The notes below the pieces were generated by a model. It saw only the letters and a list, made by a program, of their open reading frames with translations. It was not told where the DNA came from and did not search any database. The position numbers and the translations under genes were made by a program. Positions 10 to 62,554 of a stretch of DNA of 64,000 bases are shown here, in pieces; position 1 is the stretch's first letter; each line of letters begins with the position of its first letter. Source of the stretch: Spongiibacter thalassae (lineage in GTDB: Bacteria; Pseudomonadota; Gammaproteobacteria; Pseudomonadales; Spongiibacteraceae); contig NZ_JAAWWK010000005.1 of the NCBI RefSeq assembly GCF_012272835.1, positions 332,125-396,124 on the forward strand, in the 5' to 3' direction.

Positions 10-813
10 ATGGTCTTTCACTTGCTGCCGACATATTTAAATGCTCCCCTGATGGTGGTATTGCTGACCTCGTTTATGGTACTCCATGGGTTGAGAAGTT
101 ATTCCGGCGTGGAGGTCGTTGCATTTTTCGTTATTGGCTTTGTTGTTAGCAATGCTTATGAAAACTTAAGCGTTATGACCGGCTTTCCTTTCGGTGATTA
201 TTACTATACCGATAAGTTCGGTGCCAAGCTTTTTTTGGTCCCATTAGTGATTGCTCCGGCATACATTGGCATGGGTTATCTTTCGTGGATGTTGGCTCAA
301 GTGCTATTGGGCACCTGGGGACGTAGTCTCCGTGGTTCAGAGCGTATTTTGGTTCCCGTTATCGCGAGTTTCGTGATGGTGATGTGGGATTTGGTTATGG
401 ATCCAAAATCAGCCACCATTTATCAATTCTGGATTTGGGAAGACGGTGGTGATTACTTCGGCGTTCCATTTGTCAATTTTCTTGGCTGGTTGCTGTGTGT
501 TTATACAATTTTTCAGCTGTTCGCGCTTTTTCTAGCGCGCCGTGAAAAGAGCGGGGCAAGAGAGCAAAAGCCTCAAATGATGCTTCCTGCTTATTGGTAC
601 ACGGCGGTACTTGGCTATGCTTCAGTTGCCTTAAACCAAGGACTTAGAGCACTAGATAAGCCTGAGAATACTACCGTATACGACGCTGCTGGCGTTGCAT
701 GGCAAACAGACCACATCAACAGCAGTATGGGGTTGATCACCATATTTACGATGGGCTTTGTTATTTTGCTGTCGTCGATGCTAATTGCGAGATCGACACA
801 AAAAGAGAATTGA
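10..813 (+). CDS. CruF-like carotenoid biosynthesis membrane protein
   Basis: Polytopic inner-membrane protein of 267 residues with about six or seven hydrophobic segments. It resembles the DUF422/CruF carotenoid family, whose studied members hydrate the psi end groups of acyclic carotenoids. Supporting signs are the GFPFGDYYYT segment after the second hydrophobic stretch and WDLVMDP near residue 126, where the family has a conserved W-D-x3-DP. The frame is open to the window edge, so the true start could lie further upstream. No other carotenoid gene is visible, so the partners must be to the left. Family assignment is fairly sure; the exact reaction is inferred. Confidence 0.72.
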   Translation: MVFHLLPTYLNAPLMVVLLTSFMVLHGLRSYSGVEVVAFFVIGFVVSNAYENLSVMTGFPFGDYYYTDKFGAKLFLVPLVIAPAYIGMGYLSWMLAQVLLGTWGRSLRGSERILVPVIASFVMVMWDLVMDPKSATIYQFWIWEDGGDYFGVPFVNFLGWLLCVYTIFQLFALFLARREKSGAREQKPQMMLPAYWYTAVLGYASVALNQGLRALDKPENTTVYDAAGVAWQTDHINSSMGLITIFTMGFVILLSSMLIARSTQKEN

Positions 814-975: not shown

Positions 976-1005
976 GATAGCGTGGTTGATCTAAATCACG
1001 CTATC
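976..1005 (+). terminator. Stem-loop, weak terminator candidate
   Basis: Arms GATAGCGTGGTT and AATCACGCTATC pair over 12 positions, one of them a G-T, around a 6-nt loop. Only TT follows, so it is a poor intrinsic terminator. It lies about 160 nt after the CruF-like gene and may end its transcript with the help of Rho. Confidence 0.35.
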
Positions 1006-1468
1006 TTACGCCTGAACACCGGCCTACTACGTGAAATACTCTGAACTTTCCCACTATTCGAATGCTAGCGTCTGCGTAATAACTTCGCGGCGGTAGCTTG
1101 ATGGCGATCAAATTATTCGTCATGGGCAATTGTCGCTGCCTTCCGTACTTCTCCTTACTAATTTCCTTGCAGTACACAATCAATTGTCGACATACGATGC
1201 TCGGACCTGGTTTTAATTACCGGGTGCACGCGCTTGTTTGGCTCGCGGAGGGTGTGAGAAAGTCAAGAGAATCACTTGCGTCTGATCTTATTCGTGGCAG
1301 AAATAGACTGATTTGGCGGATAAGGTATGCCCTCAAGCTATGCGGCCAATGTACCGAGTCGCCAGGAAAAGAAAAATTGATAAATGGCGTTGCTTTCGGC
1401 GGGCCTGTTAATCGTTCAGGTGCAGTGGCGCACCTACGGTACAGTCAAAGCATTTATCAATTCCCTCC

Positions 1469-1497
1469 TTGACATAATAAATGCACTAGTGCATTCT
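1469..1497 (+). promoter_or_regulatory. Promoter with palindromic operator, copy 1
   Basis: A perfect -35 box TTGACA (1469-1474) is followed 7 nt later by the palindrome TGCACTAGTGCA (1482-1493), which extends to a 16-bp perfect palindrome at 1480-1495. The candidate -10 CATTCT (1492-1497) overlaps its right end. A repressor bound here would block RNA polymerase. The same palindrome, in the same position relative to a -35 box, recurs at 5808-5819 and 10402-10413. Confidence 0.7.
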
Positions 1498-1722
1498 TTT
1501 TTCGATGGCGCTATTTTTCGTCTACAGAATTATGCGAATAATCTGCTTGTGCTTTATGGCGCAGTGAGTTGGTTGTTTGAATTTTTGAGTAAGGCATTGT
1601 GGAGAATTCCTGCGCCTAAAAGCCAGTTTCAGTTCCGTATCACAAGTCAGTTTGGGTGTTCGCGTTAATCACAAAAATACCGTAGTGCCCAAAAATGCTT
1701 GCAACTCACTCAAAGGGAAACC

Positions 1723-3225
1723 ATGAAAAAGATTAAGGATTTGTTGGCGGATATAGAAAAAAGTCCGGAAGGGCCTGAAACGGCTGCTCTATTTGATTTC
1801 GATGGCACCATCATCGCAGGATACTCGGCGACGCACTTTATGCGTGAGCAGATTAGGCGCGGAGATTTTAGTCCAAAAGATCTGATGCAGATGTTCCGCG
1901 CTATTAATAGCTTCGGTAAAGGTAATATTGGCTTCTCCGGGATGATGGCTGTATCCGCCCAATTTGTTCGTGGTATCGATGAGGACGTGTACTGGGATTT
2001 GGGGAAGAAACTGTATGCCAAGAAAATAGCGGCTCTCATTTACCCAGAAACACGCGCGCTGATAGAGGCGCATAAGGCTAAGGGCCACACAGTGGCTATA
2101 ATCTCTTCGGCGACGCCCTATCAGGTTAAAGCTACAGCAGATGACTTGGGCATCGATCATGTCCTTTGCACGCAATTTGAGGTGGAAAACGGCAAGTTTA
2201 CCGGAGGCTTGGTTCGTCCAACTTGCTTTGGTCAAGGAAAAGTTGCTGCCGCAGTGCAGCTTGCCGCAGAAAGCTCCTCAGATTTAGATAAAAGCTTTTT
2301 TTACTCTGACAGCACAGACGATATTCTTTTGCTGGAGCACGTGGGTTATCCGCGAGCCCTCAATCCCAATGACAAACTCGCGGATATTGCAAAAGAGCGG
2401 AACTGGCCTGTAGCTCGTTTCGATAGCCGTGGCCGCCCAAGTGTGGGCCAGTTCGTCCGGTCATTAGCCGCCAGCTCTAGTTTGCTGGGGTCTGTGGCAG
2501 CGGGCCTGCCGATATATGCCTTCACCGGATCCCAGCAGAAGGCCGTAAATTTTTCCTTATCGCTCTTTACGAATTCTGTCAGTGCGATCGTTGGTCTGGA
2601 TCTGGATGTAAAGGGGGAAGAACACCTTTGGTCTCATAGGCCGGCAGTCTTTGTGTTCAATCATCAAAGTAAGGCTGACATGATGATTCTTTCGAGCCTT
2701 ATACGAGAAGACATTACGGGGATCGCCAAGAAGGAAATTCTTAAAGAAAACCCCTTGCTTGGCAAGGTCATGCAAATGGCCGGGGGCGTCTTTATCGACA
2801 GGTCTGATGGCAAAAGCGCCATTGAGGCAATGAAACCGCTGGTGGATGCGATGCTAGTGGACGGTAAGTCGGTGGTAATTGCCCCGGAAGGTACAAGGTC
2901 GGTTTCGCCTGCATTGGGTCCGTTCAAGAAAGGCGCATTCCACGTTGCCATGGCGGCGGGGGTACCCATTGTTCCTATCGTGATTCGCAATGCATTGGAC
3001 GTTCTTCCTAAAGGCGCTTCCGTTATGCGTGCGGCAACCGTCGATGTCACCGTTTTACCGCCGGTGGATACCAGTGAATGGTCGCCGGAGACAATCGATA
3101 CCCATGTGCGCCACGTGCGCAATATGTTTGCTCGCACCCTGGGGCAGAAAGAAGAAAGCGAGCCGCCAGTTAGGTCCAGGTCAGGTTCTACCAAGAAAAA
3201 CACAATTTCACATAATAATGATTAA
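1723..3225 (+). CDS. HAD-IB phosphatase fused to PlsC-type acyltransferase
   Basis: A 500-residue two-domain protein. The N-terminal HAD-like hydrolase has the nucleophile motif DFDGT (D25, D27). The C-terminal lysophosphatidate acyltransferase domain has NHQSKAD near residues 313-319 (family NHxxxxD), FIDRSD, and EGTRS near residue 389. Fusions of this kind are known, for example in mycobacteria, and are expected to act in phospholipid or triacylglycerol synthesis at the inner membrane. ATG 1723 is preferred because AGGG lies 8 nt upstream; an upstream TTG at 1699 has no such site. It is followed by a PlsB-like gene with a 17-nt gap, so the two are probably co-transcribed from the palindrome-bearing promoter at 1469. 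Confidence 0.85.
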   Translation: MKKIKDLLADIEKSPEGPETAALFDFDGTIIAGYSATHFMREQIRRGDFSPKDLMQMFRAINSFGKGNIGFSGMMAVSAQFVRGIDEDVYWDLGKKLYAKKIAALIYPETRALIEAHKAKGHTVAIISSATPYQVKATADDLGIDHVLCTQFEVENGKFTGGLVRPTCFGQGKVAAAVQLAAESSSDLDKSFFYSDSTDDILLLEHVGYPRALNPNDKLADIAKERNWPVARFDSRGRPSVGQFVRSLAASSSLLGSVAAGLPIYAFTGSQQKAVNFSLSLFTNSVSAIVGLDLDVKGEEHLWSHRPAVFVFNHQSKADMMILSSLIREDITGIAKKEILKENPLLGKVMQMAGGVFIDRSDGKSAIEAMKPLVDAMLVDGKSVVIAPEGTRSVSPALGPFKKGAFHVAMAAGVPIVPIVIRNALDVLPKGASVMRAATVDVTVLPPVDTSEWSPETIDTHVRHVRNMFARTLGQKEESEPPVRSRSGSTKKNTISHNND

Positions 3226-3242
3226 TACTTGGAGTGTTTACT

Positions 3243-5645
3243 GTGAGCTTACCTGCCAACTTTAATACCAACCCCTGGCCAGAAGACAGTGAGGGTTTGC
3301 AAGTACTTTTTTTGCTCGATGCGCATAATGATTACATCTACGCTTTGCTGAAAGAATGGATTGATCAATACGCGATGGGGCGAAGCTATCGTCAAGTGAG
3401 ACTCGATCTGAGCGACGATCGTGAAGGCATTGATATCAGTGAGCTGCTTCAAACACTGAGCCTTCCACCACAGACGTTGTATTGTCCTCTTAGAATCGCC
3501 TGGCTTCCCAGTAATAACGCGATTCACTCTGGCCCTCGAATTCGGGATTTTGTTTTCGGAGATCCTCGTCGACCCAGTGCTCGGCGCTGCCGCCGAATAC
3601 TTCGGAAAATGCCCGAACGAGTCCATCCTATTATCGGAAAGCCTGATTCCCTTGAGAGTCTGCGCGCTCGTTTTAGTCGTAAGTACGGTCGCGATAGTGC
3701 TACAGAGCCAGAGTCATTCAGTACGTTTACAGCTCGTCAAGCGGCTATTGTCCTTGACGTTAGTGAGCGACGCTTGCAGGGCGGCCGTTACAAGGTGCCG
3801 AGATATGTAGCGGAGAGCTTGCGTAATAATCGCAGCTTCAACGAAGCATTGGATGCATTGGCGGATAAGTCTGGCGAGAGTAAGAGCACGCTGATGAAAA
3901 GGGCCAATGCCTACATGAAAGAGATGATCTCTGTCCCCTCTACGTTTTGGCTCGACGTGTCCGCACGGTTTGCCTCTTTCTGTCTGGGTCTAGGTTATGA
4001 GCCTAAAATTGTCGTGTCTCCTTCGGCCCTGGAGGAATTGCGCAAGGTCGTAAGAGAGAACCCCTCGATCATGCTGTGGACACACAAGACTTACCTCGAT
4101 GGTTTTGTTGTTCCAAAAGTAATGTATGACAACGACTTTCCTATGCCGCATATGTTTGGTGGTGCCAATATGAAGATGCCGGCATTGGGAATGTTGGGGC
4201 AGCGGGCCGGTACTATATTTATTCGGCGAAGTTTTCAGGATGATGAGGTGTATAAGCTGACGCTGCGCCAATACATTGGCTATCTCATGGAGAAGCGATT
4301 TCCCATGAACTGGTCTTTTGAGGGTACGCGCTCTCGAATGGGAAAATTGATGCCTCCGAAGTACGGATTGTTGAAGTACGTGCTGGAAGCCTGCCACGCC
4401 AGCGATGCCCGCAATATTCATATTGTACCTGTCACAATAAGCTATGACCTGATTCGCGATGTAGAGGAGTACGCCACCGAGCAGACGGGTCGAGGTAAGG
4501 GGGCAGAAACGCTACGCTGGTTTTTCGGTTACGTGCGTAGTCTCTCGCGCCCCATGGGTAAAATCTATATGGATATAGGGGAGCCGGTGGTGCTGGAGCA
4601 GGCACCTGAACCCGGCGACAAGTTGGCATTGTCCAAAATTGCCTTTGAAGTGGCGGTGGAGGCGAACCGTGTTACGCCAATTACCTTTTCGTCATTAGTG
4701 ACCATGAGCTTACTTGGCGCGGCTCCTCGAGCGCTGACCGAGGAAGAGATTGCGACCGATTTAAGAAAACTATTGGTATGGGCGGAAGAAAGGAAGCTTA
4801 GAATTTCGGAGGATTTTCGTCGAGATTTTGCCGACCAAATGGAAGGCTTGATGGGAATCATGATAAGCGAAGGAATAGTGACACGCTACGATGAAGGGCC
4901 GCAGACCGTCTTTGGCCTGGCTCAGAATCAACAGCCTGTGGCTAGCTACTATCGTAATACTGTCGTGCACTTTTTTGTCAATAAAGCCATCATCGAGCTC
5001 GCCTTGTTAAAGGCAAGTGAGGTCGAAGCCGAGGCTGCGCTGAACGTTTTCTGGAGGGAGGTAGACGCCCTGCGTGATTTGTTCAAGTTCGAGTTCTTTT
5101 ATTCACCCACGGAGGAATTTCATCAGGAAATACGCGAGGAGTTGGGGCGTATTGATCCCCAGTGGGAAGACGTGCTCCAACAGGGGCGGGTGGAGACTGG
5201 TTGGCTGCTAAAACATATGGACCCCTTAGTCGCCCATGTGGCGCTTCTGACCTATGCAGAAGCCTATGCTATCGTCGCAGATCTCCTTGAAGAAATGCCC
5301 GCCGAGGAGTCGCTCCAAAGCAAGGATTGCGCAAATAAAGCGTTTAAGTTGGGGCGTCAACTGTATCTTCAGAGGCGCATCAGTAGCGAAGCGTCTATCG
5401 GCAAACAGCTGTTCAAAAATGCCTATCAGTTAATGGAGCACCGCAAGCTCACCAGTGGCTCAGCTGCGGGCGACGAATGTTCTGCTGTTGCTGAGCGGCG
5501 CAGCTCTCAGGCGCATGAAATTCGTGACATTCTACGTCGTATCGAAATTATTCGTAATCTTGGGAACGTTGGTGCGCGTCAGCTGGCGACACAAACACAG
5601 AGCAGAAATAATATGCAATTGCCAAGTGGTGCCCCGACGGCCTAA
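3243..5645 (+). CDS. PlsB-like glycerol-3-phosphate acyltransferase
   Basis: An 800-residue protein of the PlsB/GPAT family, expected to acylate glycerol-3-phosphate or a related acceptor at the membrane. Visible acyltransferase motifs are HKTYLD (H281, D286), FEGTRSRMGK (E360) and VPVTISYD. The long N- and C-terminal extensions are normal for PlsB-type enzymes. GTG 3243 is chosen because GGAG at 3231-3234 sits 8 nt upstream; GTG 3234 overlaps that site. Pairing with the HAD/PlsC gene gives two consecutive acylation steps. Whether it is the housekeeping PlsB or a specialised paralogue cannot be told here; control by the shared operator suggests a specialised role (inference). Confidence 0.85.
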   Translation: MSLPANFNTNPWPEDSEGLQVLFLLDAHNDYIYALLKEWIDQYAMGRSYRQVRLDLSDDREGIDISELLQTLSLPPQTLYCPLRIAWLPSNNAIHSGPRIRDFVFGDPRRPSARRCRRILRKMPERVHPIIGKPDSLESLRARFSRKYGRDSATEPESFSTFTARQAAIVLDVSERRLQGGRYKVPRYVAESLRNNRSFNEALDALADKSGESKSTLMKRANAYMKEMISVPSTFWLDVSARFASFCLGLGYEPKIVVSPSALEELRKVVRENPSIMLWTHKTYLDGFVVPKVMYDNDFPMPHMFGGANMKMPALGMLGQRAGTIFIRRSFQDDEVYKLTLRQYIGYLMEKRFPMNWSFEGTRSRMGKLMPPKYGLLKYVLEACHASDARNIHIVPVTISYDLIRDVEEYATEQTGRGKGAETLRWFFGYVRSLSRPMGKIYMDIGEPVVLEQAPEPGDKLALSKIAFEVAVEANRVTPITFSSLVTMSLLGAAPRALTEEEIATDLRKLLVWAEERKLRISEDFRRDFADQMEGLMGIMISEGIVTRYDEGPQTVFGLAQNQQPVASYYRNTVVHFFVNKAIIELALLKASEVEAEAALNVFWREVDALRDLFKFEFFYSPTEEFHQEIREELGRIDPQWEDVLQQGRVETGWLLKHMDPLVAHVALLTYAEAYAIVADLLEEMPAEESLQSKDCANKAFKLGRQLYLQRRISSEASIGKQLFKNAYQLMEHRKLTSGSAAGDECSAVAERRSSQAHEIRDILRRIEIIRNLGNVGARQLATQTQSRNNMQLPSGAPTA

Positions 5646-5793
5646 GCAAAAGCTGACTGGCCGCGATGGGTATTGGCGCCTTTACCGCTAATTCACTCGC
5701 TCCTCAGGGCGCGCTACGGGGCCGTGGGGAAGTTATATTTTCAGTATTCGGTAGTGCTCTCGGAGAGGTATTGGATTCCCGAGCGATAATAGC

Positions 5794-5823
5794 TTGACAT
5801 ATATACATGCACTAGTGCACATT
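5794..5823 (+). promoter_or_regulatory. Promoter with palindromic operator, copy 2
   Basis: TTGACA (5794-5799) is followed after 8 nt by TGCACTAGTGCA (5808-5819), with a weak -10 CACATT (5818-5823). The layout matches copies 1 and 3. It lies about 100 nt upstream of the first SDR gene. A further short inverted repeat (TAACTTA/TAAGTTA, 5893-5912) lies next to that gene's ribosome-binding site and could affect its translation. Confidence 0.7.
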
Positions 5824-5922
5824 GGTTGGGTGTAATAGCTAGCCATGCGTTTAATTGGTCCAGGCAGCCTGGGGATTACGGTGGCTCGCTTATAACTTAA
5901 TATAATAAGTTAAGGTTTATTT

Positions 5923-6714
5923 ATGAGTAAAAAAACGGTTGTTGTCACAGGTGCGGCAAATGGAATTGGCGCGGCTACTGCCAGTGCCTTTGCAAAACAG
6001 GGGCATCTCGTTTGGATTACCGATCGAGATGAGAATCTGGGGCAGTCCTTTGCTAAATCCCTCTCCGACGATGGTGCTGATGTTGAGTTCAAGCAGCTTG
6101 ACGTGACCAATGAGGAACATTGGGACGCGTTGCGTGCGGCCATCGAGGAAAAAGGGAATCGAGTCGATGTGCTCGTTAATTGCGCCGGTCGCAATGATTT
6201 CGGCTTTATTGCTGATACCCCGTGGAAAAAAGTCGCGCAGGTGATGGATGTTAATCTCGGCGGCGCGTATCTCGGAATACAGAAACTTTTGCCACTGCTG
6301 TCCAAGCGAGGCAGTGATGAACCAAAGGCGTCGGTCGTCAATATCTCTTCTATGGCTGCAGGGGGCGGAGTGCCGTTTTTTAGCGCCTATGCGGCGAGTA
6401 AAGCCGCATTGACGTCGATGACAAAGACGGCAGCACTGGAGTTCGCGCGGCTGCAGGTTCCTGTGCGAGTGAACGCGATCGAGCCCGGCACTATCAATAC
6501 TGAAATGTTTGCAGAAACACAGGAAATGCTGTCTGCATTCGGAAAGACGAAAGAAGAGTTGACGCAATATTCAATAGATAAGCACCCGGTTGGCCGCTTG
6601 GGTACCGTTGAAGACGTAGTTTATGCGGTTCTCTACCTGGCAGATGACAGGGCGTCATTTACTACAGGGCTATGCTTGCCTGTTAGCGGCGGACGCGGCG
6701 CGGGTGAGTGGTAG
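5923..6714 (+). CDS. Short-chain dehydrogenase/reductase (SDR)
   Basis: NAD(P)-dependent cytosolic oxidoreductase of 263 residues, normal for classical SDRs. The cofactor motif TGAANGIG is at residues 9-16 and the catalytic YAASK has Y156 and K160; NISSMA supplies the usual serine. The start is ATG 5923, preceded by AAGG in 'taaggtttattt'. A second SDR follows after 55 nt. Substrate is unknown; family members here typically oxidise secondary alcohols or 3-hydroxyacyl groups. The operator at 5808 probably controls it. Confidence 0.88.
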   Translation: MSKKTVVVTGAANGIGAATASAFAKQGHLVWITDRDENLGQSFAKSLSDDGADVEFKQLDVTNEEHWDALRAAIEEKGNRVDVLVNCAGRNDFGFIADTPWKKVAQVMDVNLGGAYLGIQKLLPLLSKRGSDEPKASVVNISSMAAGGGVPFFSAYAASKAALTSMTKTAALEFARLQVPVRVNAIEPGTINTEMFAETQEMLSAFGKTKEELTQYSIDKHPVGRLGTVEDVVYAVLYLADDRASFTTGLCLPVSGGRGAGEW

Positions 6715-6769
6715 TTCATAGTTCGAGAAGCATAGGTAAATCGAAATATCATACTTAGGAGAATGAATA

Positions 6770-7636
6770 ATGAGACGTTTGGAAGGTAAAGTAGCTATTG
6801 TTACAGGTGCTGGTGGCTCAATCGGTACTGCGGGCGTAAAGCGCCTGGCTGAAGAGGGAGCCAACCTGGTTCTCAATGACATCCGCGAAGAGGCCCTGAT
6901 GGCTGCGGCCGAGGCATGTCGTGAAGCTGGCGCTAAAGTTGTGACCTTGGCGACCGATACTCGCTCAGAAGAAGCTTGTGACGAAATGGCAGCTAAAGCC
7001 GTTGAAGAGTTTGGTCGCATTGACACGGTATGGGCAAATGCTGGTCAGGTGTGGGTTGCTGAAGCACTGGAGCAAGACAAGGATTTCTGGACCCGCTGCC
7101 TTGATTTGGAGCTGACCGGCCAATGGTTGCCAGTGCGTGCTGCGCTTCCTACCATGCAGGCGCAGAACTCCGGTTCGGTTATCTTCAGCTCTTCAATGAC
7201 CGCGAACGTGGGCATCAAGCACATTTCGGCTTACAGTGCTGCAAAAGGCGCACTGCAGGCTTTGGTAAAAGCCCTGTCTGTTGAATTCGGTCACCACAAG
7301 ATTCGTTTTAACAGTCTTGCGCTTGGCTCTGTTGAAGGTCGCCACATCATTGAGTCTAACGCAATGCGAAGCGGCATGACCTACGAAGAAGCAGAAGCTG
7401 TTGTTAACATGACCAAAAAGTTCCGTGACCTTATTTTTGCTGTAGGGCGTATGGGTACGCCTGAAGACATTGCACCGATCGTCGCTTATTTTGCCTCAGA
7501 CGAATCAGAGTGGGTAACTGGTGCTAACCATTATATCGATGGTGGTTTGACTCACCTGGGAATGGCGGGCATGCACAACCTGGATTCAGAACAGTTAATG
7601 GCCGTTGGCTCTGCTCTCGGAATCGAGCTTGGCTAA
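6770..7636 (+). CDS. Short-chain dehydrogenase/reductase (SDR)
   Basis: A 288-residue SDR, slightly long for the family, with TGAGGSIG at residues 12-19 and YSAAK at 155-159. AGGAG lies 8 nt before the ATG. The C-terminus carries an extension after the DGGLTHLG motif. A diverged copy of that C-terminal segment continues in the same frame straight after the TAA stop (7637-7717), described separately. Co-transcribed with the SDR at 5923; a good terminator at 7698 follows. Confidence 0.88.
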   Translation: MRRLEGKVAIVTGAGGSIGTAGVKRLAEEGANLVLNDIREEALMAAAEACREAGAKVVTLATDTRSEEACDEMAAKAVEEFGRIDTVWANAGQVWVAEALEQDKDFWTRCLDLELTGQWLPVRAALPTMQAQNSGSVIFSSSMTANVGIKHISAYSAAKGALQALVKALSVEFGHHKIRFNSLALGSVEGRHIIESNAMRSGMTYEEAEAVVNMTKKFRDLIFAVGRMGTPEDIAPIVAYFASDESEWVTGANHYIDGGLTHLGMAGMHNLDSEQLMAVGSALGIELG

Positions 7637-7717
7637 GATAGTGGCCTTACTCACTTGGGGATGGCAGCAATGCAAAAACTGAGTGTGAATCTTATAAGTC
7701 AGTCCCTTTGGGGCTGA
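7637..7717 (+). pseudogene. Remnant of a duplicated SDR C-terminus
   Basis: Immediately after the TAA of the preceding SDR, the same frame reads DSGLTHLGMAAMQKL and then runs to a TGA. The intact gene ends with DGGLTHLGMAGMHNL at the matching place, so this is a diverged second copy of its last part and not chance similarity. It has no start of its own. It probably marks recombination between tandem SDR paralogues. Confidence 0.75.
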
Positions 7718-7724
7718 CTTTTTT
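7698..7724 (+). terminator. Rho-independent terminator
   Basis: Arms GTCAGTCCC and GGGGCTGAC pair over 9 bp (one T-G) around a TTT loop, followed by TTTTTT. It ends the SDR pair and reduces read-through into the KstD-like gene. It overlaps the end of the SDR remnant. Confidence 0.82.
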
Positions 7725-7756
7725 GTAGCTGGTTTGTGAAGAAGGAGGGTAATCCG

Positions 7757-9451
7757 TTGAGCTTGCAAGACGCACAGTACGATGAGTTTCATGACGTAAT
7801 TGTCGTCGGGTCCGGAGCCGCCGGTTTGGCTGCGGCAATTACCGCGAAGTTGAATGGGCTCAATGTTCTTGTCGTTGAAAAAGCTGACCACTACGGTGGT
7901 ACCTCTGCGGTATCGGGTGGCGCCTGCTGGATTCCAGATAACCCCCATATGAGGGCGGCGGGACTTGAAGACAGTTTAGAGGCGGCCTACGGCTATATCG
8001 AGATTCTGGCAGGCGAGCATTTTAAACCAGACCTGGTAAAAACCTTTTTGGAAAAAGGTTCTGAAATGGTCACTTTCCTGGAAGAAAATACTGAAGCACG
8101 GTTTGAGCATCGAGACCACTCGCCGGATTATCAATCAGACAAGCCCGGTGCTGCGATGGCGGGCCGAACCCTGGATGTGTCCCTGTACGATGGGCGGAAC
8201 CTGGGAGAGCATTTCTCGGCGCTTCGCCCCCCCTTGTCCGATATCACAATCTTCCGTGGTTTAATGGTAAATCACAAAGATATTGCGCATTTGGTCAACG
8301 TCTCAAAATCCTTCAAGTCCTTCTGCTATGTTACTCGCCTTATCACGGGGCATATCATTAGCCTGTTAAAGTATGGGCGAGGCACGCGCTTGCTATTCGG
8401 CCAAGCCCTGATTGCTCGTTTGGCAAAGACCATGTTTGATCTGAACATTCCGCTTCGGCTGGAAACGGGAGTCACAGAGTTAATTGAAGAAGAGGGGGTG
8501 GTTACGGGCGTGGTTGCCGAGCACAAAGGCCAGATGCTTCGCTTGGGGGCAAAAAAGGGCGTAGTGCTAGCGGCCGGAGGATTTCCCCAAAGTGCCGAAA
8601 AGAAATTCAAGTTTATGTCCCACGTGCGAAATGGTGCCGAGCATTTCACACTGGCGCGTTCATCCAGTGACGGCCTGACTCAGGATGCCGCAGTGAAAGT
8701 TGGCGCCAAGCCAATGGCTGTCGGCGCGAGTCCTGCTTTCTACATGCCAGTGACCTTGGTCACTCAGGCCGATGGTACTACTGTACCGCACACCAATTTG
8801 ATGGATCGTGCCAAGCCAGGCGTTATTGCAGTCAATACCGACGGCAAGCGGTTTACGAATGAAGCGGCGTCCTACCATGATTTTGGTGCAAGTATGGTAG
8901 CGGCAGGATTGAAGTACGCGTGGTTAGTGTGTGACGAAAAAGCGCTACGGCAATTTGGGCTGGGGGCTGTGCGCCCGGCGCCAATACCCTATAAAAAATA
9001 TTTGCGCTCCGGTTACCTGAAAACAGGCGCGACAATAGAAGATTTAGCTTCTGAGATAGGGGTACCTAAAAATGAACTTCGGGATACGATTGAGCGCTTC
9101 AATGTCGATGCAGCTCAAGGTGTTGATAGTGAATTTGGTAAAGGGTCGACTGCCTACCAGGAAATGATGGGTGACCCGGAGCACAAGCCCAATGCCTGTG
9201 TGAGGCCGTTAGAAGGGCCCTTCTTTGCGGTAAAGCTGCAACATGGGGATATTGGCACAGCGTGTGGTTTGGCAACGAATGTTCACGCTCAAGTGTTATC
9301 TACGTCAGGGGAGCCGATTCGCGGGCTTTATGCATGTGGTAACGAAATGGACTCGATTACCGGAGGCGTGTATCCGGGTGGCGGCACGACTTTGGGGCCC
9401 GGGCTGACCTTCGGATACATTGCTGGCCAGCATGTCGCTAAAAGCAGCTAA
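7757..9451 (+). CDS. FAD-dependent 3-ketosteroid dehydrogenase-like flavoprotein
   Basis: A 564-residue flavoprotein of the FAD_binding_2 family (KstD / fumarate reductase flavoprotein-like). The N-terminal dinucleotide motif GSGAAG is at residues 18-23. The C-terminal YPGGGTTLGPGLTFGYIAG is the usual KstD-type FAD-contacting end, and the length fits KstD (500-570). Studied KstDs introduce a 1,2 double bond into 3-oxosteroids, but relatives act on other cyclic ketones, so the substrate is open. TTG 7757 is preferred because AGGAGG (7743-7748) lies 8 nt upstream; GTG 7736 precedes that site. It sits after the SDR terminator and may have its own promoter. Confidence 0.8.
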   Translation: MSLQDAQYDEFHDVIVVGSGAAGLAAAITAKLNGLNVLVVEKADHYGGTSAVSGGACWIPDNPHMRAAGLEDSLEAAYGYIEILAGEHFKPDLVKTFLEKGSEMVTFLEENTEARFEHRDHSPDYQSDKPGAAMAGRTLDVSLYDGRNLGEHFSALRPPLSDITIFRGLMVNHKDIAHLVNVSKSFKSFCYVTRLITGHIISLLKYGRGTRLLFGQALIARLAKTMFDLNIPLRLETGVTELIEEEGVVTGVVAEHKGQMLRLGAKKGVVLAAGGFPQSAEKKFKFMSHVRNGAEHFTLARSSSDGLTQDAAVKVGAKPMAVGASPAFYMPVTLVTQADGTTVPHTNLMDRAKPGVIAVNTDGKRFTNEAASYHDFGASMVAAGLKYAWLVCDEKALRQFGLGAVRPAPIPYKKYLRSGYLKTGATIEDLASEIGVPKNELRDTIERFNVDAAQGVDSEFGKGSTAYQEMMGDPEHKPNACVRPLEGPFFAVKLQHGDIGTACGLATNVHAQVLSTSGEPIRGLYACGNEMDSITGGVYPGGGTTLGPGLTFGYIAGQHVAKSS

Positions 9452-9601
9452 ATGCTACTGCGGTGTGCTTCTGGACTGCAGAGGTGTGCCAGATTATAGT
9501 CGCCTGGGCGAGGGTCGCTGCCTGCAGACCGATAAAGGCGGCGTTGCAATGGGCGAATGCACGAACGTAAATAAGTGGTGCGTATTCGATAATGCATCGC
9601 T

Positions 9602-10327
9602 ATGACGGCTACTGATCTCATAATCTATTCGTCCATTGCGCTAAGCACCTCTACCATCGCAGCAGTCTTTGGGTTCGCTGGCGGTATGATCCTGGTCGCC
9701 GCGCTGTCGAATCTTCTTCCGGCCGCTGCGGTCATTCCAGTGCACAGCGCTGTACAGCTTATTAGTAACTCCAGCCTCGCGGCTTTCGGTAAAAAATTTA
9801 TTCATTGGCCTATTGTTCGCGAGCATTTGATAGGCGCATCTATCGGGATAGTTATTTCTTTCTTATTCCTGCGAAAATTGGATCTTGCGATGACGCCGGC
9901 GATTATCGGCTCATACATCCTGCTCAGTGTTTGGAGTAAGCGATTTATAGCGGTAATGGGAAAAATCGAGTCCTTCTATATTCTAGGTGCAATTCAGGCA
10001 GGCTTAAGTCTGATAGTTGGGGCTACGGGGGCGCTGCAAATGCCCGCACTAATAAGGAAACTATCAAACCACCATCAGGTGGTATCTACCGTTGCGGTGA
10101 TTATAACGACCGATCACCTGCTAAAATTCATCGTGTTCTATGCGATAGGGTTCGCCTTCATAGATTACGCACCGGCTATCCTGTGTATGGGGTGCTCTGC
10201 AATCATAGGGTCTTATGTGGGGACAAAGCTTCGGCACTATATTGATTTAAGCAAGTACCAGTGGGTTATTAAGGTGCTGCTCTCTATACTGGCAATATTG
10301 GCGATATCCAGATACGTATTAAACTAA
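9602..10327 (+). CDS. TauE/SafE-family membrane exporter
   Basis: A 241-residue hydrophobic protein with about seven or eight membrane segments, of the TSUP (TauE/SafE) family; members move sulfite, sulfoacetate or other organic anions across the inner membrane. The glycine-rich first segment (FGFAGGMI) and the GATGALQMP repeat half are typical of the two-fold internal symmetry. ATG 9602 lies 150 nt after the KstD-like gene; no clear ribosome site is seen. Its cargo is unknown; a pathway acid is possible. Confidence 0.75.
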   Translation: MTATDLIIYSSIALSTSTIAAVFGFAGGMILVAALSNLLPAAAVIPVHSAVQLISNSSLAAFGKKFIHWPIVREHLIGASIGIVISFLFLRKLDLAMTPAIIGSYILLSVWSKRFIAVMGKIESFYILGAIQAGLSLIVGATGALQMPALIRKLSNHHQVVSTVAVIITTDHLLKFIVFYAIGFAFIDYAPAILCMGCSAIIGSYVGTKLRHYIDLSKYQWVIKVLLSILAILAISRYVLN

Positions 10328-10387
10328 TCCATTCGCTTTGGTCGGAGATGCTTCGTTGACTCGCGGGGGGATGTTGATATTGAAGGT

Positions 10388-10417
10388 TTGCTGAATCGGA
10401 GTGCACTAGTGCATAAT
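10388..10417 (+). promoter_or_regulatory. Promoter with palindromic operator, copy 3
   Basis: TTGCTG (10388-10393), 8 nt, then TGCACTAGTGCA (10402-10413), with -10 CATAAT (10412-10417) at an 18-nt spacing from the -35. This is the same geometry as at 1469 and 5794. It lies about 155 nt upstream of the SnoaL-like gene. Confidence 0.72.
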
Positions 10418-10570
10418 GAGTGTTGTGCGTGTAGCCGTTCCAGTCTGGCTTCCTGGTTTTGATAAGGCTGAGCTGTCCAGGGGCAGGCTGTTTGATCCTT
10501 TACGATATTTACGTTGATTTTTGTCCTTGCTAATTATCCAGACCGCATCGTCCGTCAAAGAGAAATAATA

Positions 10571-11050
10571 ATGAATGATATAGATGAAATCAGAAATCTC
10601 ATCGCCAGCTATGGTCAAACCGTGGACTCCTTTCCACGAGATCCTCGGCGTTACGCCGACCACTTTGTCGAAGAGGGCGCGTTCACCGACTGTGGTGTGA
10701 CATTGAGTCCGCGAAGCAAAATCAAGCAGTTAATGGAAACCGCACGGTCAGCAGAAGTAGAAGCTGCCCCCCTAAGTGGAACGCGACACCTGCAATTGAA
10801 TTCTGTTATCAATGTAGATGGCGACTCGGCCCATGCGACTAGTCAGCTTGTAGTTGTGGAGCTTAGTGAAAAAGGTTGGAAAATTCGCGGTATTGGCCAG
10901 TATACCGATGACATTGTGCGAGACGTCGACGGTTGCTGGAGGTTTAAGTCGAAGGTGGTAACCTGGTTTAAGGGGTTGGGGCCGGATCCATTAAACCCTG
11001 AGTTAAGCTCCTTTTATGAAAGTGTTTTCCTGTCGATAATGAATTCCTAG
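10571..11050 (+). CDS. SnoaL/NTF2-like protein
   Basis: A 159-residue protein with the alpha+beta barrel pattern of the SnoaL-like (NTF2-fold) superfamily: an N-terminal helix with IRNLIASYGQ, then YADHFVEEGAFTD, and paired strands ending in DGCWRFKSKVVTW. Members include isomerases, hydratases and dehydratases as well as proteins without known activity. ATG 10571 with AAAGAG upstream is preferred to the TTG at 10514. It lies first behind operator copy 3 and is followed after 67 nt by a DsbA/FrnE-like gene. The reaction cannot be assigned. Confidence 0.7.
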   Translation: MNDIDEIRNLIASYGQTVDSFPRDPRRYADHFVEEGAFTDCGVTLSPRSKIKQLMETARSAEVEAAPLSGTRHLQLNSVINVDGDSAHATSQLVVVELSEKGWKIRGIGQYTDDIVRDVDGCWRFKSKVVTWFKGLGPDPLNPELSSFYESVFLSIMNS

Positions 11051-11117: not shown

Positions 11118-11777
11118 GTGAAAAAATTATCCATTGATATCGTTTCAGATGTGATGTGCCCGTGGTGCATAATCGGTTATAAAGGATTGGAGATCGCATT
11201 GGCTGATCTTGCTCCAGAAATAGAGGCTGAAATTAATTGGCTACCCTTTGAAATTAATCCGCACTATCCCAAAGAAGGGAAGAATTTTATCAGGCATTTA
11301 ACTGAGAAGTATCCGAATACGACGCCCGAGCAATTCATGCTACAGCGCAACATGATAGCGGCAAAAGGGCGAGAGGTAGGTTTCGAGTTTGGTTTTTCGG
11401 AGGAGTCGCGGATATTCAATAGTTTTGACCTGCACCGCTTGCTAACCTGGGCCAAAGAAAAAGGTAAGCAGCACGCATTGAGCCTTGCGTTTTTTCAGGC
11501 GCATTTTTCACAGAGTATGCCTCTGTACGATCAGGCGACAGTGTTGAGCATTGTTCGCGCAGTGGGTCTCGATAGTGATGAGGCTGCAAAAGTACTTACT
11601 TCTGACGCGTATGTAGAGCAAGTCAGGAAGGAGCAGCAAAAGAGCGCCGCAATGGGCGTTCATTCCGTCCCGACGTTTTTCATTAATGGAAAAAACGTCA
11701 CTTCCGGGGGACAGCCGCCAAGCGTATTCAAGAGGGTTCTTCTTGAAGCGGCGTCGGAAATGCCCGGCGAAAACTAA
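11118..11777 (+). CDS. DsbA/FrnE-family thioredoxin-fold protein
   Basis: A 219-residue protein of the DsbA family, FrnE/2-hydroxychromene-2-carboxylate isomerase type. The active-site CPWC is at residues 14-17 and the cis-proline loop (HSVPTFFING) near residue 185. There is no signal peptide, so it acts in the cytosol. Members either handle disulfides or use glutathione to isomerise aromatic or polyketide intermediates. GTG 11118 is the start. It is the last gene of the unit behind operator copy 3, next to a SnoaL-like protein, which hints at a catabolic rather than a stress role (inference). Confidence 0.82.
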   Translation: MKKLSIDIVSDVMCPWCIIGYKGLEIALADLAPEIEAEINWLPFEINPHYPKEGKNFIRHLTEKYPNTTPEQFMLQRNMIAAKGREVGFEFGFSEESRIFNSFDLHRLLTWAKEKGKQHALSLAFFQAHFSQSMPLYDQATVLSIVRAVGLDSDEAAKVLTSDAYVEQVRKEQQKSAAMGVHSVPTFFINGKNVTSGGQPPSVFKRVLLEAASEMPGEN

Positions 11778-21101: not shown

Positions 21102-23468
21102 TTAACGGCCCGTCCAGCGCGGTTTGCGTTTCTCGGCGAATGCTTTGCTGCCTTCAAAAAAGTCTTCGCTGTTGAGCAGGTTGTCAAACACTCTGTGGGG
21201 TTGAGTTACCGCATCGTCAATACTTGCAAAGCCAGCCGTCTCGTTAAGTAATTGCATGGTGCTGCGCACGGCGACGGGGGCGGAATCACAGATAAGCTCG
21301 GCCAGATTCATGGCGTGTTCGTCCAGCGCTTCTTTGGCAACGACATGATTCACCAGCCCTAGCTCACTTGCCTCGTCGGCGGTGACAGACTTGCCGGTAA
21401 GCAGCATTTCCATGGCTTTTTTCAGGCCGATTTGGCGGGTTAAGCGTTGAATCCCGCCCATGCCTGCAAACAGCCCCACTTTGACTTCCGGCAGACCGAA
21501 AATGGCATGGTTTGCGCTGACAATAATGTCGCAGGCTAGTGCAATCTCCAGACCGCCGCCTAAGGCAGAGCCGTTTACCGCGGCGATAATGGGCTTAACG
21601 CGGTTTGGCCGCGCGGTTAGGCCGGCAAACCCGGTTTTTGGCACCCAGAATGGCTCGCCTGATGCCATCGCCTTGAGGTCATTCCCTGCCGAGAAGGCTT
21701 CAGAGCCTGCGCCGGTGAGTATGGCGACCCAAAGGTTTTTGTCTTTTTCGTAGGCGTTAAAGATATTTTCCAGCTCTTGGTTGGCCGCAGGATTGAGAGC
21801 ATTGCGGACTTCCGGCCGATTTATGGTGACCTTCAACACTTTGCCGATTCGCTCTACGCGGCAGTATTGATAGTCTTCCTGAAATTCATCAATAACGGGG
21901 GGGAGATATTGTTGCAGGGTTTCGCGTGAATACGCATAGCGATTCCCGCGCGGATCTGCTTCCACAAAAATGGTGCTGCCAAGCATCTTGTCAGAAAGCG
22001 TCCTGGCGAGTGTTTCGCTATCCTCAAACGCGTTCAGTGCGTAAAAGCGTTTGCCATTGGATTTTAATTTCCCGATGACAACACTGTTCAAGGGCTGTCC
22101 CTTGAAGTAGTTAATGATGTATGACTCCAGCACTGCCTCGCCACTGGGTTTTGCCTCCATTTCAATGGGGGCTTCTGCGTCAACATTGGCTTGCAGGTGG
22201 GTGGATGGGGCGGGCTGCCAGGCCTCTGAGGGCGGCGTGGTGGAATAGATCCCTGCGGCGTGCTTCGACATCCACCCGCCGTTTGCGTACAAAAGGCCGT
22301 AGCTGCCTGGCTCCTTGCGTAGCGACTCCACTAGTGAAACAAGGCCATGGGTAGAGTAGTTGTTTCCCGGGCCGCCAAAGTAGGGGAGACCACCGGTTTG
22401 CGACAGTGGACGGGGGTCGTTGGCCGCAATACCCAGTATATCCCTCGCCTGGTGCACAACAACGGGAAAGCAGCTGTAGATGTCAAAATGCTGAATGTCC
22501 TGTGTCTGCTTGCCTGCCGCTGCCAGCGCGCCCAGTAAACTTTGCTCCATCCCTTTGGAGTAGCCAATGCGAGGGCGCTCAAGCAATGTGCGTTCCTTGG
22601 TGTTGCTGTATCCGTGCAGATACACCCATTTACTTTCCGGAATACCCAGTGACTTTGCCTTGCCAACGGTTGTGAGTACCACCGCGGCGGCTTGGTTCAC
22701 GCTGTCTTTGGCTACCAGATTGCGCGTAAACGGTGACACAATCATGCGGTTTTTATCGTTGGGCTCAGTGAGCTCGTTCGGCGTATAGGCTTGTGGGAAC
22801 TGGGCGTGAGGATTGTTGGCAGCAATCTGGGAGAGTTTGGCGAAGGTGTTGCCCATTTCCTTGCGGTATTCGCTGATATCCTCGCCCAGGTCGGCGCGAC
22901 GTGCCTGCTCCATGAAACCATAGAATTGCATGGGCTGTAATAGCTGGTGTTCAAATTCAATACTGGTAGCCAGGTGGTCGCCATCGGTAAGTCCTCTGTC
23001 CTCCAGGCTGCCTTCGATGTTTTCTGACCAGTTCAGTTTTACGCCTTGGCGTGACGCGGCTTTGATATTCGCCATCACTTCGCCGCCGACGAGCAATACT
23101 GCTTCGCAGCTGCCCTTGTGCAGCTTCTCTGAAAATTCGCCAACCAATGCTTGCGGGGTTTGCCCTCCCACCGTTGCGTAGATCGCGTCCTTGGGGGTGA
23201 TGCCCAGTCTGCGGCCGACGGCGCGAGGGAAGTTGTCCGGGCTACCAAATGGGCTACTCCAGGCGGGGCTGGAATCTGCAAATATACGCACGCCGACAAT
23301 GGTATCTATGTGCTCAGCGATGCCGATGTATTCGCAATCGGCAAGGGCGCGTTTAGCCGCCATTGCCGCGAGATCTGCGTGGGAGGGGGCTGTTGATAAG
23401 TCTTCTGGGACTTGTTCGGTTTGTTGTCCTACACCGACGATAATAGGAGTTTGGTCGTGTATCTGCAT
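21102..23468 (-). CDS. Thiolase-like protein (TLP1 type) fused to enoyl-CoA hydratase
   Basis: A 788-residue fusion. Residues 1 to about 500 form a thiolase-like protein in which the usual nucleophile region reads GGQTPQ with no cysteine, while GGLPYFGGPGNNYSTHG and NGGWMSKHA are kept; its last part resembles the extra C-terminal domain of mycobacterial thiolase-like protein 1. From about residue 533 there is a complete crotonase domain with both hydratase glutamates, in GGGLEIALACD and GLPEVKVG. The stand-alone proteins end before or start after this junction, so the fusion is unusual. Start 23468 has GAGTGAAG upstream. First gene of the leftward cluster, divergent from an AraC gene. Confidence 0.82.
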   Translation of the reverse strand: MQIHDQTPIIVGVGQQTEQVPEDLSTAPSHADLAAMAAKRALADCEYIGIAEHIDTIVGVRIFADSSPAWSSPFGSPDNFPRAVGRRLGITPKDAIYATVGGQTPQALVGEFSEKLHKGSCEAVLLVGGEVMANIKAASRQGVKLNWSENIEGSLEDRGLTDGDHLATSIEFEHQLLQPMQFYGFMEQARRADLGEDISEYRKEMGNTFAKLSQIAANNPHAQFPQAYTPNELTEPNDKNRMIVSPFTRNLVAKDSVNQAAAVVLTTVGKAKSLGIPESKWVYLHGYSNTKERTLLERPRIGYSKGMEQSLLGALAAAGKQTQDIQHFDIYSCFPVVVHQARDILGIAANDPRPLSQTGGLPYFGGPGNNYSTHGLVSLVESLRKEPGSYGLLYANGGWMSKHAAGIYSTTPPSEAWQPAPSTHLQANVDAEAPIEMEAKPSGEAVLESYIINYFKGQPLNSVVIGKLKSNGKRFYALNAFEDSETLARTLSDKMLGSTIFVEADPRGNRYAYSRETLQQYLPPVIDEFQEDYQYCRVERIGKVLKVTINRPEVRNALNPAANQELENIFNAYEKDKNLWVAILTGAGSEAFSAGNDLKAMASGEPFWVPKTGFAGLTARPNRVKPIIAAVNGSALGGGLEIALACDIIVSANHAIFGLPEVKVGLFAGMGGIQRLTRQIGLKKAMEMLLTGKSVTADEASELGLVNHVVAKEALDEHAMNLAELICDSAPVAVRSTMQLLNETAGFASIDDAVTQPHRVFDNLLNSEDFFEGSKAFAEKRKPRWTGR

Positions 23469-23577
23469 GTCTTCACTCTTTTCATTATGACGGTGGTCTA
23501 GCAACGCATGCGTATCATGGTTTGAGAAAAATCCACATAGACTACCCTTGCTCGGGGTGGTGAATTAATGGTGCTGG

Positions 23578-32980: not shown

Positions 32981-34396
32981 ATGAAGCAACTCAGTAACAT
33001 GGATTCGTTATTTGTTTACAACGAATCAGCTAAAGCACCCCTGCATATTTCCAGCATGTTTATTTATGACCCACCCGTTGAGGGTGAGCCGCCTGTTCGC
33101 TTTAAGGACATATTGCGTCGCTACGAAGAGCGTCTTCCCTTGTCGCCCGTTTTTCGCCGTAAGCTCTCGAAAGTGGTTTTTGATCTCGATACGCCGTATT
33201 GGATTGAGGATCCGGATTTTGATCTCGAATTTCATGTGCGCCATATCGCCTTACCTGCACCCGGTGACTGGCGGCAACTGTGTATATCGCTGGCGAGGCT
33301 TCAAAGCCGGCCATTGGATTTGAGTCGCCCTCCCTGGGAAGTCTACGTTATTGAGGGCTTGAATAATGTGAACGGCCTGCCTGAAGGCAGCTTTGGGATG
33401 TTGATTAAAATCCATCATGCAGCCATTGATGGCGCTACCGGGGCGCAGTTGGGGGCTGTACTACACGATCTGGAGCCTAACCCGGTGCCGCGGGATATAA
33501 GCGATGATTGGCAGCCGGAAGAGGAGCCCAGTCAGCTAAGAAAATTAGGTAAAGCGTATCTAAATTTCATTACGACACCGAGGAAAGCCACGTCTTTGGT
33601 GAAGAAGGTGGTTAAGTCACGCAATAACTTATTTGGCAATTCTACAAAGACGCCTCAGACTGAACATAATTTGAAAGTCCGTACCCGCTTTAATCAGCCC
33701 ATAAGCCCACACCGGGTGTTTGGTGGTTTGCGTATGGACCTTGATGATGTAAAGCGTATCCGTCGCGTTGCGGGTGAATGTACGTTAAATGATGTGTTGT
33801 TAAGCATTATCGGCGGGGCAATGCGTCACTATCTTGAAGATAAGGGTGAATTGCCGGAAAGCTCCCTGGTTTCTCTTGTGCCGATCAATACCCGTAAAGC
33901 TGACGCTAGTACTGAAGGTGGGAACGAAGTTTCCGTAATGTACGTCAGTGTGGGAACGGCGGTGGCAGACCCGCTTGAGCGCATTCGCTTCATTAATTCA
34001 GATGCGGTTAGCTCGAAAGCCTACGCCGAAGCGGTCAGTGTAGAGTTGATGAGTTCAACGATCGATACCGTGCCCACCAGTCTGATGTCTTTGGGAATGC
34101 GGGTTGGTGTTAAAACGGGTCTGGTATCAAAAGCAGCGTTGCCACAAACGATTGTAACTAATGTGCCAGGGCCGCAGTTTCCCTTGTATTTCTGCGGGGC
34201 TAAAGCGTCAGTGGGTTTTGGGATAGGTTGTATAACGGACGGGAGCGGGCTGTTTCATACTGTAACGAGCTACAACGGTAGTGTGACCCTGACTTTTTTA
34301 AGTTGCCGTGAAATGATGACCGACCCTGATTTTTATCATCAGTGTATTAATCGCTCGTTGCAAGAGCACTTGGAGGCAGTTGGCGTAGGCGGCTGA
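32981..34396 (+). CDS. Wax ester synthase / diacylglycerol acyltransferase (WS/DGAT)
   Basis: A 471-residue bifunctional acyltransferase. The catalytic HHAAIDG is at about residues 144-150; PLSPVFRRKL, LNDVLLSIIGGAMR and NVPGPQFPLYF are the other conserved family segments. It uses acyl-CoA to make wax esters or triacylglycerol as storage lipid. AAGGA lies upstream of ATG 32981. Storage of carbon from a hydrocarbon-like substrate would fit the PlsB and PlsC acyltransferases at 1.7-5.6 kb, which make the acceptor (inference). Confidence 0.92.
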   Translation: MKQLSNMDSLFVYNESAKAPLHISSMFIYDPPVEGEPPVRFKDILRRYEERLPLSPVFRRKLSKVVFDLDTPYWIEDPDFDLEFHVRHIALPAPGDWRQLCISLARLQSRPLDLSRPPWEVYVIEGLNNVNGLPEGSFGMLIKIHHAAIDGATGAQLGAVLHDLEPNPVPRDISDDWQPEEEPSQLRKLGKAYLNFITTPRKATSLVKKVVKSRNNLFGNSTKTPQTEHNLKVRTRFNQPISPHRVFGGLRMDLDDVKRIRRVAGECTLNDVLLSIIGGAMRHYLEDKGELPESSLVSLVPINTRKADASTEGGNEVSVMYVSVGTAVADPLERIRFINSDAVSSKAYAEAVSVELMSSTIDTVPTSLMSLGMRVGVKTGLVSKAALPQTIVTNVPGPQFPLYFCGAKASVGFGIGCITDGSGLFHTVTSYNGSVTLTFLSCREMMTDPDFYHQCINRSLQEHLEAVGVGG

Positions 34397-57905: not shown

Positions 57906-57948
57906 TTTAAGTATGCCTTGTTAGTAGGATGGGTTCTTATGCTGCGTA

Positions 57949-59085: not shown

Positions 59086-59113
59086 CGTTCTTTCCTTTGT
59101 TTTTTTTTGAAGG

Positions 59114-60274: not shown

Positions 60275-60328
60275 TCTTATCTCCATAACCGGAACCCAGC
60301 ACAGCTGGGTTCCAATTCGCAAAAGGGA

Positions 60329-62476: not shown

Positions 62477-62554
62477 TGTCTTGTCCTAAATTCTGTCATT
62501 GTTAGTGGCGTGTTCAGAACCGGCGCTGGAATGTTGTCGCCGGTTCGAGGCCGT

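Follow-up and report, generated by a model that had tools for sequence, protein, structure and literature searches.

In a 64,000-nucleotide stretch of the Spongiibacter thalassae genome (contig NZ_JAAWWK010000005.1, positions 332,125 to 396,124), the 12-bp palindrome TGCACTAGTGCA occurs three times, each time in promoter position. This stretch, hereafter the window, corresponds to C9:332125-396124 of the 4.40-Mb genome, which we term G000. The palindrome is very probably the operator of P0001, a TetR-family protein encoded in the same genomic island, which would repress genes of uptake and degradation until a ligand releases it. Comparison of the site, the TetR gene and the associated genes in four genomes supports the proposal of a preliminary description that one operator here defines one regulon.

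Copies and Distribution of the Probable Operator

Exact copies of the palindrome were verified at all three positions claimed for it (Table 1), the first one nested in the 16-bp palindrome AATGCACTAGTGCATT. The flanks differ between the copies, and the palindrome alone is common to them. Among the perfect 12-bp palindromes of the window (23 distinct, 25 occurrences), TGCACTAGTGCA is the only one present more than once. The highest copy number of any 12-bp palindrome in 300 dinucleotide shuffles was one (287 shuffles) or two (13), and none of them reached three copies, as the claim of an excess beyond chance had implied; chance or palindrome-rich DNA as the source of the repeats was rejected on this basis. 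When up to two mismatches were allowed, the window gave seven matches vs. 2.56 expected, and 3 of 100 shuffles reached seven, so the excess resides in the exact copies. The operator consensus can be put at about TRCACTARTGYA.

Genome-wide, five exact and three one-mismatch sites were found; a reversed-pattern control gave two. Seven of the eight lie within 21 kb (C9:321084-342537) spanning the left window edge, the cluster reaching 12.5 kb left of operator 1, and the eighth is the exact site at C1:204333. A candidate site with two mismatches is located at C9:330594, behind a TonB-receptor gene. The regulator had been expected outside the window, and a TetR-family gene was indeed found nearby, beside further copies of the site: the P0001 gene ends 308 bp before the double site at C9:321084/321108, at a distance of 11.3 kb from the left edge of the window.

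Table 1. Features in and around the window (window positions unless a contig of the genome, C1 or C9, is given).
Feature	Position	Strand	Remarks
-35-like TTGACA	1469..1474	+	7 nt upstream of operator 1
Operator copy 1, exact TGCACTAGTGCA	1482..1493	.	sequence match
HAD-IB phosphatase/PlsC-type acyltransferase fusion	1723..3225	+	first gene behind operator 1
Glycerol-3-phosphate acyltransferase	3234..5645	+	second gene behind operator 1; scanned from 3243; NF002886 753.5 bits, cut-off 721
-35-like TTGACA	5794..5799	+	8 nt upstream of operator 2
Operator copy 2, exact TGCACTAGTGCA	5808..5819	.	sequence match
SDR 1	5923..6714	+	orthologs behind sites in Paraglaciecola and G790
SDR 2	6770..7636	+	ortholog with own operator in Paraglaciecola and G790
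FAD-dependent dehydrogenase, 3-ketosteroid-1-dehydrogenase-related	7736..9451	+	scanned from 7757; under all listed equivalog cut-offs
TauE/SafE-family membrane protein	9602..10327	+	ortholog in G832 island, 68%
-35-like TTGCTG	10388..10393	+	8 nt upstream of operator 3; -10-like CATAAT, spacer 18
Operator copy 3, exact TGCACTAGTGCA	10402..10413	.	sequence match
SnoaL_4-domain protein	10571..11050	+	behind operator 3
DSBA-domain protein	11118..11777	+	CPWC motif; domain scan
TetR-family gene, protein P0001	G000:C9:320123-320776 (L009:6924-7577)		outside window; PF00440
Double operator	C9:321084 (exact), C9:321108 (one mismatch)		24 bp apart; upstream of cupin operon; outside window
Double operator	C9:328020, C9:328056 (one mismatch each)		36 bp apart; upstream of TonB-dependent receptor; outside window
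Distant operator	C1:204333		upstream of TonB receptor, sulfatase and FGE-type gene; outside window

Comparison of Four Islands

A TetR scan of named genomes, which reaches close relatives only, returned a single locus, in Paraglaciecola sp. 20A4. As a second marker we used P0002, the homogentisate-dioxygenase-like cupin of the island. It was retrieved from two of 295 sampled genomes of the Paraglaciecola family (Paraglaciecola itself and G790), two of 390 of the own order (the own genome and G832, a member of another family), one of 394 in a sample of the Paraglaciecola order (Paraglaciecola alone) and six of 369 in a class sample, namely the own genome and five distant matches of 29-35% identity. 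The TetR proteins of Paraglaciecola sp. 20A4, G790 and G832 are 57, 49 and 71% identical to P0001, respectively, and palindromes are found near the TetR gene in all four genomes. By reciprocal best matches, 15 genes are common to the four islands, in rearranged order: the TetR gene, a six-gene cupin set, an MFS transporter, a TonB receptor, three SDRs, a flavoprotein related to 3-ketosteroid-1-dehydrogenase (KSTD), and the SnoaL and DSBA proteins.

Sites and islands go together. Paraglaciecola sp. 20A4 (5.4-Mb genome) has both of its exact sites and 5 of its 14 one-mismatch sites on the 26.9-kb island contig; both exact and three of nine one-mismatch sites of G790 lie inside the island. For G832, whose counts refer to the fetched stretch, five sites within one mismatch fall into a 20.5-kb core, the limits of which were drawn after the sites were seen, and none into the surrounding 59.5 kb. 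The degenerate pattern TRCACYRGTGYA, likewise composed after the sites of these islands were seen, has 6/6 of its matches in the island in G790, 6/7 in the own genome and 7/12 on the Paraglaciecola contig (reversed control: zero, zero and three).

At orthologous promoters, the cupin operon carries an exact site in all four genomes, and the TonB receptor one-mismatch sites in the own genome, Paraglaciecola and G790 and, in G832, one site with one and one with two mismatches. SDR 1 has promoter sites in the own genome, Paraglaciecola and G790; its G832 ortholog follows, on the same strand, the TonB-receptor gene whose promoter bears the sites, with SDR 2 and the flavoprotein gene downstream of it on that strand. 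In the own genome the latter two genes lie behind the SDR 1 site, whereas Paraglaciecola has a site of their own for them (exact), as does G790 (one mismatch). The SnoaL promoter shows an exact site in the own genome and one with a single mismatch in Paraglaciecola, and in G832 an exact site separates TauE-SnoaL-DSBA from a divergently oriented MFS gene. The stretches fetched from the other three genomes contain no counterparts of the acyltransferase genes behind operator 1, and the putative membership of these genes is based on the exact site and the consensus -35 box rather than on orthology.

Nearly all strong sites lie outside coding DNA. From three islands, 18 of the 19 sites on which a weight matrix was trained are intergenic, as are four of the five sites within one mismatch in G832; the two remaining ones are located at the 5' ends of open reading frames (ORFs) that probably start further downstream than called. 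Among the weaker matches of the matrix, which was trained on the very sites listed with it, some are coding (4 of 12 matches in the own genome, 2 of 11, including 25205, in Paraglaciecola, and 3 of 15 in G790).

Conservation of the sites in relatives, which the preliminary description had put forward as a check, was seen at the orthologous promoters of the three other island genomes and failed in 17 congeners, which lack the TetR and P0002 (0/17 each). Vertical conservation within the genus was thus not found. The island is therefore accessory in the genus, and it occurs, rearranged, in two families of the own order and in the Paraglaciecola family. By GC content, the own core is not marked as foreign (49.9% vs. 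50.9 and 51.2% beside it) and that of G790 not clearly so (41.2% vs. 40.4 and 39.9%); the G832 core stands out (50.0% vs. 57.8 and 56.1%). A plasmid home for the island was rejected, with no relative of at least 60% identity among plasmid records for the TetR (22 records) or P0002 (48 records); more distant relatives of P0002 do occur on plasmids. To the left of the island (G000:C9:315436-319310; L009:2237-6111), a small HTH_3 protein, a HipA-domain gene and possible serine-recombinase pieces were observed, which are possibly a trace of its arrival.

Promoter Architecture

The -35 boxes described 7-8 nt upstream of the palindromes are present, with gaps of 7, 8 and 8 nt. The -10 element said to overlap the right arm is weak in the window: at spacers of 16-19 nt, the best hexamers match TATAAT in 3/6, 3/6 and 5/6 positions, and a generic promoter scan of positions 1000-11000 called none of the three operator promoters (nine promoters found vs. 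10.1 expected by shuffling). Of the two parts of the promoter claim, the -35 box is thus the better supported one. The four island cores together hold 24 sites with no more than one mismatch. Eleven of these have TTGAC(N) at a gap of 6-8 nt, nine of the 11 at exactly 7 nt; all other gaps from 0 to 49 nt, both strands together, account for five. The commonest layout in the relatives, seen at five of the eight listed sites from Paraglaciecola, G790 and G832, is TTGACA, 7 nt, the palindrome, and CATATT or CATTAT at a 17-nt spacer, so the palindrome appears to occupy the spacer and to contribute the start of the -10 element.

A repressor bound in the -35/-10 spacer would exclude polymerase. We propose that a TetR dimer sits in the spacer of the island promoters, with the right arm of its site reaching the -10 element, and that the bound P0001 dimer would thus block RNA polymerase.

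The Probable TetR Regulator

P0001 carries a TetR_N helix-turn-helix (HTH) domain (PF00440, 42.9 bits vs. a cut-off of 24). Its structure model is all-helical and of moderate confidence (mean pLDDT 66, pTM 0.57). A fold search gave 46 PDB matches at E<=0.001; those listed are transcriptional regulators, several of them labelled TetR and others TetR proteins as well, with TM scores to the query of 0.35-0.63 among the 50 matches listed. P0001 is predicted, with moderate confidence, to have a TetR fold with a C-terminal ligand domain. Structures of FasR, FadR and KstR with CoA-type ligands are among the 50 listed matches, as are regulators with other ligands, e.g., RutR and AvaR1, so that an acyl-CoA-like ligand of P0001 is a possibility. 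Within the HTH stretch (P0001 residues 43-75), 28 of 33 positions are identical across all four TetR proteins, vs. 43 of 142 in residues 76-217. Such conservation of the HTH with drift elsewhere is expected if the four proteins share one operator, and we infer that P0001 is the protein that binds it.

Weighing of Alternatives

Several observations weigh against the proposed TetR-operator system. Thirteen of the 24 sites lack TTGAC at the fixed distance. The exact cupin-operon site of G832 is one of them, and so are the sites of the TonB receptors and those at SDR 1 of Paraglaciecola and of G790; many of the 13 belong to double or triple arrays upstream of TonB receptors and SDR 1. The weak -10 hexamers of the window and the failure of the generic scan at all three of its operator promoters count here as well. 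Sites with at most one mismatch, exact ones included, lie outside the island in 9 of 16 cases in Paraglaciecola, 6 of 11 in G790 and one of eight in the own genome, and reversed-pattern controls gave three hits in Paraglaciecola and six in G790, besides the two in the own genome. The SnoaL side of G790 has weak sites only. As the island moves as a block, the four genomes count as less than four independent cases. No site is present in the TetR promoter of the own genome, and those of Paraglaciecola and G790 have a site with two mismatches only, which makes autoregulation uncertain. Finally, a finding that counts on both sides is that a set of 145 genomes contains 11 exact 12-mers outside the own genome vs. 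three for the reversed control, a small excess without the TetR: all 11 come from ten of the 144 relatives that lack this TetR at E<=1e-20 (G017, G019, G027, G031, G053, G071, G097, G107, G117 and G144), where they might reflect chance or another regulator.

That P0001 binds the site but activates transcription, or represses some promoters and activates others, we consider unlikely. Activation would suit the TonB-receptor and SDR 1 promoters of Paraglaciecola and G790, where sites come in twos or threes and TTGAC is missing at the fixed distance; it is at odds with the 11 of 24 palindromes that lie in the spacer behind a near-consensus -35 box, where a bound dimer should exclude polymerase. 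Somewhat less likely still is the view of P0001 as a bystander, with the palindrome bound by another regulator: a MerR-type activator, the AraC-family protein encoded at window positions 51678-52646, or the HTH_3 protein beside the HipA-domain gene left of the TetR gene. MerR activators also bind in the -35/-10 spacer, but the spacers of their promoters measure 19-20 bp, whereas those found here read 17-18 bp. Moreover, the stretches fetched for the other three genomes gave no best match (E<=1e-15) to the HipA, HTH_3 and AraC ORFs, and the HTH-regulator domain of P0001 is the only one among the 15 genes common to the four islands (scanned in their own-genome forms). A chance repeat, or a mobile-element or structural repeat with no regulatory role, to which the serine-recombinase-like ORFs left of the island (by reading of the ORFs) might point, is hardly credible given the shuffles, the differing flanks, the fixed spacing to the -35 box and the survival of sites at orthologous genes through rearrangement.

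Putatively Regulated Genes and Candidate Pathway

With P0001 as the repressor, release of the protein by its ligand, which is probably the pathway's substrate or one of its intermediates (a CoA thioester, for instance), would induce uptake genes (TonB receptors and the MFS transporter) together with degradation genes, namely those of the SDRs, the KSTD-related flavoprotein, the homogentisate-dioxygenase-like cupin, the FAH-family hydrolase and a CoA-transferase/hydratase/lyase trio. The distant unit on C1 would belong to the same regulon. There, TTGACC stands 8 nt before the palindrome, and a sulfatase gene and an FGE-type sulfatase-modifying gene come after a TonB-receptor gene, all three on one strand. 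The surrounding stretch (G000:C1:198592-208066; L010:3593-13067) contains tandem TonB receptors, 81% identical, and then the sulfatase and the FGE-type activating enzyme, the palindrome being located between the two receptor genes, upstream of the second. This locus could not be linked to the island by gene neighbourhood alone. With it, about 18 genes (15 of the island and three at the distant receptor/sulfatase locus) would form one physiological unit, assuming the predicted operon membership. In this way, three anonymous repeats lead to a proposed regulator, operator and regulon that can be put to the test, and the site-bearing promoters could serve as a reporter to find the substrate.

Behind the double site at C9:321084/321108 lie seven co-oriented genes, encoding the cupin P0002, a CitE/HpcH-like protein, a MaoC hydratase, a CaiB-type CoA-transferase, an alpha/beta hydrolase, an FAH-family hydrolase and an MFS transporter. 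P0002 passes the cut-off of the HgmA_N Pfam domain (29.2 vs. 20.2) and is, by score, no HgmA, since it stays far under that of the equivalog TIGR01015 (32.3 vs. 510.75 bits). Homogentisate-dioxygenase-like enzymes bind iron by a His-Glu-His triad. In the alignment with 3zds, a homogentisate dioxygenase, H331 and E337 correspond to H283 and E289 of P0002, which are kept in all three aligned sequences. The printed alignment pairs H367 with H321, a residue not kept in the two homologs; a role as third ligand is possible for H315, which is kept. The AlphaFold model of P0002 was too low in confidence to be of use (pLDDT 29.6). The CaiB, MaoC and CitE-like proteins resemble the itaconate-degradation trio at the family level only, with RipB and RipC scores of 172.9 vs. 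340 and 141.6 vs. 375, respectively, and the CaiB-type CoA-transferase below all seven listed equivalog cut-offs.

Judged by these family assignments, the gene set may serve to cleave the ring of a methyl-substituted hydroquinone and then to degrade a C5 dicarboxylate. A more specific reading, which we offer as tentative and rather doubtful, is that the regulon marks a pathway not yet described and spread by horizontal transfer, with hydroquinones as substrates that are methylated and possibly prenylated or sulfated; algal toluquinols and tocopherol-like compounds would be examples. Once the tail is removed, ring opening of the methylated compound would fall to the homogentisate-dioxygenase-like enzyme and splitting of the product to the FAH-family enzyme, which would yield a methyl-fumarate-type C5 acid; CoA-transferase, hydratase and a citramalyl-CoA-type lyase would convert the latter to acetyl-CoA and pyruvate. 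If this is true, the C1 operator, with its TonB receptor, sulfatase and sulfatase-activating enzyme, would put desulfation of the substrate into the same regulon.

Relation to Known Systems

The type of switch is well known and ordinary. KstR is the TetR repressor of the actinobacterial cholesterol-degradation regulon, in which, as proposed here, one TetR protein and one short palindrome govern many promoters of a catabolic gene set. However, its motif differs, KstR ranks only 43rd in the fold search of P0001, and no steroid role is shown for the island genes. The mycofactocin repressor MftR, also a TetR protein, responds to long-chain acyl-CoA effectors and binds T-N2-GGCA-N5-TGCC-N2-A (PMC8728441), an operator unlike ours. 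MftR is the best NCBIfam match of P0001 (TIGR03968) and its second PDB profile match (8x0a), but the score of 57.9 bits is far under the family cut-off of 224.9.

PheR, which represses phenanthrene catabolism in Sphingobium, similarly ties aromatic degradation and, reportedly, TonB-related functions to substrate availability; it belongs to the IclR family and has the minimal motif GCAACG (PMC13273656), in contrast to the TetR-family regulator of the island. The itaconate-degradation trio of CoA-transferase, itaconyl-CoA hydratase and citramalyl-CoA lyase (PMC12290011) is matched by the CaiB-type, MaoC/RipB-like and CitE/RipC-like genes of the island operon. Unlike that trio, the island proteins score below the equivalog cut-offs and are accompanied by the homogentisate-dioxygenase-like cupin and the FAH-family hydrolase. 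A full-text search of the open-access literature for the 12-mer TGCACTAGTGCA gave no papers, and the matches listed in searches of the same literature for the pathway and for similar regulators include no description of this motif, regulator or gene set. The particular operator-regulator pair thus seems undescribed, and the controlled pathway may be the more novel part.

Further Genes of the Window

Whether the TauE/SafE-family protein between the flavoprotein gene and operator 3 is part of the regulon is uncertain. The window that holds the two glycerolipid acyltransferases also encodes a wax ester synthase/DGAT (32981-34396), and a storage-lipid link to the operator-1 unit is possible. In the protein encoded at 21102-23504, a thiolase-like part (TLP1_add_C domain) is fused to an enoyl-CoA hydratase domain; a 48% identical protein (545 aa aligned) is encoded near the C1 site, at L010:16350-17990. 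Positions 57123-63763 hold a beta-oxidation-like set of enoyl-CoA hydratase, CaiB, acyl-CoA dehydrogenase, FadB-like protein and thiolase. Its counterparts in G790, 71-85% identical, are encoded 16-24 kb left of the island, in the same order except for one inserted SDR; no site within one mismatch was found there. At the left end of the window (10-813), a CruF-like membrane protein of the carotenoid-hydratase family has a 79% identical counterpart in the G832 island; the corresponding position in Paraglaciecola and G790 is taken by an AsqO_C/Diels-Alderase-domain protein.

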